The position numbers and the translations under genes are program-made. Positions 59,242 to 59,849 of a stretch of 64,000 nucleotides of DNA are shown here, in pieces. A model generated the notes under the pieces. The model made no database searches and was not told where the DNA came from. It worked only from the letters and a program-made list of their open reading frames with translations. The stretch lies in assembly GCF_014251275.1 (NCBI RefSeq), contig NZ_CP059183.1, positions 248,001-312,000 on the forward strand, in the 5' to 3' direction. This stretch comes from Blattabacterium cuenoti. Its GTDB lineage: Bacteria; Bacteroidota; Bacteroidia; Flavobacteriales; Blattabacteriaceae. Within the stretch, counting starts at the first letter, position 1. Every line of letters begins with the position of its first letter.

Positions 59242-59834
59242 CTATACACTATACAATTTATTTTTATGGATATAAATCCAAACTTTTTCGTTAAGAAAAG
59301 ATTTAATATTTTTATTGATTCTAATGGAGTTTCTAATAAAAGAAGATGATATTTCAATTATTGGAGCATTTTGTAAAAATACAATATTTTCTTTATTTTC
59401 ATATTCATAAGATGTAGTTTTGTATATCCCCGATCTTGGATATACTAAAATATCATATTGATTTAAAATAATTTTATAATTTTTCCATTTACTAAAAGAA
59501 AAAAAAGAATCTTTTCCCAAAAGAATAAAGAATTTATATTTATCATAAGGATATTTCTTTTTTACATGTATTAAGGTATCTATTGTATAAGAAGGAGTAT
59601 TTCCATATTCAATATCCATAACTACCATCTTTTTGTTTGTGAAAATAGAAAGATTTACCATATTCATTCTATGTTCATAATCTACAAGGATTTTTTTTTT
59701 AATGGATTTTGTGGAGAAACAATAAACCATACATAATCTATATAATCAAATAATTCTATAATGTGTTTTGCAATCATTACATGCCCTAAATGAATTGGAT
59801 TAAAAGATCCGAAATAAAGTACTATTTTTTTCAT
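59242..59834 (-). pseudogene. nadD: NadD, nicotinate-nucleotide adenylyltransferase, frameshifted in an A10 tract
   Basis: NadD makes nicotinate adenine dinucleotide, the step before NAD. The ATG at 59834 opens a frame with the nucleotidyltransferase signature GSFNPIHLGHV (residues 9-19) and PQNPLKKK. A run of ten A (59691-59700, minus strand) then shifts the frame and the first frame ends at a TAG two codons later. The rest of the family follows in the next frame: DYEHRMNM, LLGKDSFFSF, and the C-terminal ISSSFIRNSI. With 8 or 11 A residues one frame of 196-197 aa would be restored. It may be dead, rescued by transcriptional slippage, or an assembly error. Confidence 0.85.
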
Positions 59835-59849
59835 AAACATAAAATAGAT

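Follow-up and report, generated by a model that had tools for sequence, protein, structure and literature searches.

A nadD gene divided between two frames

The window, the 64,000-nucleotide stretch of the single-contig Blattabacterium cuenoti genome (594,902 bases; G+C about 23%) that was analysed here, carries on its minus strand a nadD gene that is divided between two reading frames. The upstream open frame (59682 to 59834) starts at an ATG at 59834, contains the nucleotide-binding motif GSFNPIHLGH, and reads MKKIVLYFGSFNPIHLGHV...SPQNPLKKKSL before it stops at a TAG; a further in-frame ATG lies at 59840. The frame breaks at a run of ten A (59691 to 59700), which is the proposed slippage site, and the TAG shortly past this run (59684 to 59682) terminates unslipped nadD translation. 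The downstream open frame (59242 to 59690, its stop ending at 59242) runs from ILVDYEHRMNM through ISSSFIRNSI. Reading passes into it from the upstream frame only by a shift of +1 or -2; a single nadD frame needs 11 or 8 A in place of ten. The preliminary description of this DNA had placed the ATG, the tract and the junction of the two halves exactly at these positions, and its arithmetic, by which 8 or 11 A would restore the frame, is right.

Are the two frames halves of one gene? The same description held both halves of NadD to be recognisable, and they match complementary pieces of the NadD profile TIGR00482. The upstream half matches positions 1-42 (E 8e-11; 42.3 bits) as well as positions 1-42 of Pfam CTP_transf_like, and the downstream half matches positions 44-194 of TIGR00482 (E 4e-31; 108.4 bits). 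Each half alone scores under the TIGR00482 cut-off of 112.45 bits; the in-frame orthologue of the congeneric genome G042 scores 156.5 bits. Between them the halves cover the full length of the profile and carry the NadD motifs GxFxPxHxGH and ISSSxIR. The break at the A10 run is the sole lesion in nadD of B. cuenoti.

The B. cuenoti genome yielded no further NaMN adenylyltransferase of this family: besides nadD, the search found two CTP_transf-like genes, at 354509 and 540269, which are taken by their length as putative coaD and ribF. The steps before and after NadD, encoded by pncB and nadE, have matches over cut-off in every genome that keeps nadD (48/48). Since Blattabacterium must take up nicotinate in published metabolic models (PMC3287516, PMC3819652), NadD is predicted from these models to be essential. 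A single congeneric genome of the 49 searched, G029, has nadD reduced to a 105-bp remnant; it also yields no pncB match and only a weak nadE cross-match (L066, L186, L216), and it appears to have dropped the NAD pathway as a unit.

Recurrence of the break and selection on both halves

We sought nadD in 49 Blattabacterium genomes and read the region of the run directly in 48. Comparison of orthologues in related strains, a check that the preliminary description had named, found the gene broken at the same SPQNPLKKK A run in 37 of these 48 congeneric genomes and in frame in 11. Among the 37 is the published Mastotermes strain MADAR. (In the congeneric genome G043, the small second contig has a sequence identical to that of the plasmid carried by Blattabacterium MADAR, from Mastotermes darwiniensis, and all 12 of the plasmid records that it matches are from Blattabacterium.) Two out-of-frame phases occur: 29 of the 37 genomes need +1 base, and 8 need -1 (or +2); the sister genomes G019 and G046, for example, are of the first and the second kind, respectively. 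In all 37 the A run is 10 or 11, and, counted from the DY motif, the downstream frame runs for 139-152 codons without a stop. The runs of the 11 in-frame genes, by comparison, are 3, 4, 5, 6, 7, 9, 9, 10, 10, 11 and 12. The five genomes with a run shorter than 9 are all in frame, and nadD is out of frame in 37 of the 43 with a run of at least 9 (Fisher's exact p 3e-4, with genome kinship ignored). When branch lengths are used as weights, four or five erosions of the run are counted, all on in-frame branches (p about 0.009 to 0.003). The difference in run length between in-frame and out-of-frame genes suggests that the run erodes only where the frame is already right.

Long A runs rarely break other genes of B. 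cuenoti. About 183 sense runs of at least 10 A lie in its aligned coding sequence, 173 of them within one uninterrupted frame, and roughly 95% of the long sense runs other than that of nadD are in frame. Three other genes break at an A run: a MenI-like thioesterase gene at about 426,700 (A14), a gene for a TerC-family membrane protein at about 522,980 (A15), and a gene resembling the HsdR N-terminus at about 573,140 (A10). These are split in 2, 1 and 1 of the 49 genomes, respectively, so among the genes tested nadD stands apart. The idea that A runs tend to break in general was rejected, since the breaks in the other three genes are private or nearly so. The dnaX gene of B. cuenoti (about 52,360) has a frame break of its own at a T10 run towards its 3' end. 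Beyond the genus, in the one other genus of the Blattabacteriaceae that has nadD, the gene is in frame and the A run is absent. In the order, about 97 other genomes have a NadD match, nearly all in a single frame.

The history of the phase was followed on a tree of genes near pncB and one gene adjoining nadD (3113 aligned residues). With three states, the phase requires 11 changes, against a mean of 17 with shuffled labels, and none of 2000 shuffles was as low. With the tree rooted at its midpoint, parsimony favours the main out-of-frame phase as the three-state root; the two-state Fitch root set was in-frame on one traversal, and another traversal of the same tree allowed out-of-frame. Read by eye, the tree holds about five switches from the main out-of-frame phase to the other one and about five to the in-frame state. 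B. cuenoti (G000) is sister to G029 and lies inside an otherwise in-frame clade. Because its nearest nadD-keeping relatives (G038, G003, G009, G010, G014, G022 and G039) are in frame, the break of B. cuenoti itself may be fairly recent. The association of cockroaches with Blattabacterium is more than 200 million years old (PMC9603385).

Is the broken gene still constrained? Codon maximum-likelihood models were fitted on a fixed tree, with rescaled branch lengths from a one-ratio fit. Downstream of the break omega is 0.243 on out-of-frame and 0.223 on in-frame branches, a difference that is not significant (2ΔlnL 1.5). Upstream, the corresponding values are 0.11 on out-of-frame and 0.09 on in-frame branches. 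An omega of 1 on out-of-frame branches is rejected for the downstream part (2ΔlnL about 367) and for the upstream part (about 178). On the terminal branch of B. cuenoti, omega is 0.15 for the downstream half (2ΔlnL versus omega = 1, 20.8) and 0.07 for the upstream half (5.4), values that, the branch being long, could average over time on either side of the break. Separate codon fits of the downstream part gave 0.25 and 0.18. Close pairs of genomes showed few synonymous and nonsynonymous changes. The codon models strongly support purifying selection on each half of nadD. The preliminary description had seen no visible decay in the downstream half, had taken this to suggest that the gene is still under selection, and had proposed dN/dS on both halves; the codon models and the co-retention of the pathway agree with that judgement.

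Routes to a full-length NadD

How, then, would a working enzyme be made? We propose that nadD is a working, selected gene which is out of frame in the DNA and is read by means of RNA polymerase slippage on the A10 run, and we regard this as probable; the preliminary description had pointed to such rescue in Buchnera and Blochmannia, and the comparisons support its interpretation. The recurrence of the break at one site in 37 of 48 genomes, together with the lack of decay, suggests that the message is probably repaired each time by slipping on the A run. RNA polymerase would slip on the run and produce a pool of messages with varied numbers of A; messages with one extra A (or two fewer) would give full-length NadD, and the remaining messages would give a stub of about 50 residues. 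We infer the slippage itself, its transcriptional rather than ribosomal nature, and a yield of NadD that suffices. In the in-frame relatives the run codes for a lysine loop of 6-8 codons (18, 21 or 24 nt), and the +1 and -2 products of B. cuenoti, 21 and 18 nt, fall inside these natural lengths. When NadD is aligned by sequence to solved NadD chains, a gap opens at the position of the run. With a loop that tolerates differences in length, both products would fit the natural range, and the in-frame lengths span nearly all of the likely slippage products. In transcripts of E. coli and Buchnera, insertions cluster in A/T runs, with single bases making up 80% of them, and their frequency rises exponentially with run length; the same genome-wide survey of transcript errors in Buchnera found no frame-restoring error, which counts against the slippage reading (PMC5574713).

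One could go further and suppose that the out-of-frame run is itself selected: the run would act as a slippage attenuator, holding down NAD synthesis across Blattabacterium, and would have persisted through a large part of the symbiosis. This we consider doubtful. The disparity between the other long runs, nearly all in frame, and that of nadD, out of frame in most genomes with a long run, speaks for such an attenuator; against it, switches to the in-frame state have been about as frequent as switches to the other out-of-frame phase. Similar frequencies are what one would expect if the cell requires little NadD and the phase is therefore of little consequence.

A -1 frameshift of the ribosome at the A run, as in dnaX, would yield NadD from an unslipped message and is unlikely. 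The string A AAA AAA is known to be slippery, and the shift needed in 29 of the 37 genomes, B. cuenoti included, is the one that a -1 ribosomal slip produces. The remaining 8 genomes need the opposite shift, with about five independent switches on the tree, so that the constant -1 direction of a programmed ribosomal frameshift is not kept across the genus. The structure 3' of the run is not unusually stable in B. cuenoti (z +1.12); the values in two relatives are -1.98 and -1.06. Whereas a -1 ribosomal slip would account for 29 of the 37 genomes, polymerase slippage serves both phases, and transcriptional slippage is the simplest reading.

The recurrence, the purifying selection, the retention of pncB and nadE and the lack of a second NadD make both an early pseudogene and an assembly error unlikely. 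That nadD is dying in B. cuenoti, as in its sister G029, is very improbable. In its favour, G029 lacks pncB, nadE and most of nadD, and B. cuenoti alone is out of frame in a clade whose other members with nadD are in frame. Against it, B. cuenoti keeps pncB and nadE, over cut-offs; its nadD has no further lesion and a low omega on its own branch in both halves; and elsewhere in the genus the out-of-frame gene persists without decay. We therefore reject this explanation, the mark of relaxed selection being missing. A homopolymer error in sequencing or assembly at the A10 run is more improbable still. Runs of ten A are error-prone in some technologies, and the few other A-run breaks of B. cuenoti are unique or nearly so; with such private breaks, some homopolymer error or early decay is possible in this genome. 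For nadD the error was rejected, because the same run is broken in 37 genomes, MADAR included, and most other long runs (about 173 of 183) are in frame; the phases also track the tree. Finally, reassembly of the enzyme from the stub and a C-terminal piece made from an internal start is scarcely credible and was rejected, because the ATG that B. cuenoti has in the downstream frame at 59730 is not a conserved start: the first ATG of that frame lies past the conserved DY motif in 35 of the 37 genomes, and the 8 genomes of the other phase have just 5-6 open codons ahead of the motif.

Relation to known slippage systems

Transcriptional slippage rescues genes with frameshifted poly(A) tracts in Buchnera and Blochmannia (Tamas et al. 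2008; Wernegreen et al. 2010; as cited in PMC3017870 and PMC5009743), and PMC5009743 puts the share of corrected transcripts in the published symbiont cases at 12-50%. The nadD gene has the features of these cases: a single indel in a long A run with the rest of the gene open, conservation across species without decay, purifying selection downstream of the break, and an AT-rich insect symbiont as its host. It differs in that Blattabacterium belongs to the Bacteroidota, in that the gene encodes an enzyme of the NAD pathway, and in that nadD has been compared in 48 genomes and is out of frame, in two phases, in 37. Most likely, therefore, as judged from the genomes, Blattabacterium nadD joins the known slippage-rescued symbiont genes and is unusual among them in its breadth and its natural controls.

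Productive transcriptional slippage on runs of A9 or T9 is described, in the account of PMC5009743, for dnaX and for Shigella flexneri. Likewise, nadD has a run of at least nine A (or T, in those genes) at the site where the polymerase is proposed to slip. Slippage in dnaX and S. flexneri yields an additional product or serves regulation, whereas every functional NadD product appears to need the slip. With the -1 ribosomal frameshift of E. coli dnaX, nadD shares an A-rich slippery string; in contrast to dnaX, it showed no clear downstream stimulator among the structures analysed, and 8 genomes need the opposite shift.

Among the papers searched there was no report of a near genus-wide out-of-frame state of this predicted essential enzyme with natural controls, and none in which Blattabacterium and nadD are named together; frameshifts are absent from the Blattabacterium genome papers that we searched. 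Should nadD be decoded by slippage, most of the genus has long produced a predicted essential enzyme from messages that are mostly wrong. For most Blattabacterium genomes, automatic annotation is likely to mark nadD as broken, and as a result metabolic models would omit NAD synthesis in error. The genus can be regarded as a natural experiment, with two phases, in-frame reversions followed by erosion of the run, and one lineage that dropped the pathway. How much transcriptional error is tolerable for an essential gene could be tested here by counting A in RNA reads.

Finally, we note frame breaks elsewhere in these genomes. The incomplete genome G131, of the same order, has its nadD match in two adjacent pieces. 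G003 has breaks of its own near long A runs (L115-L146), for example at about 540,170 and at 326,730-326,870; they include an ftsK-like gene (A12) and one gene at A16. Within the NAD pathway, nadE is split in 4 of the 48 genomes that keep nadD (G012, G034, G048 and G027; L206, L207, L208 and L209), the frame being lost each time in an A12 run that occupies the same position, and in G035 this position reads in frame with A13.
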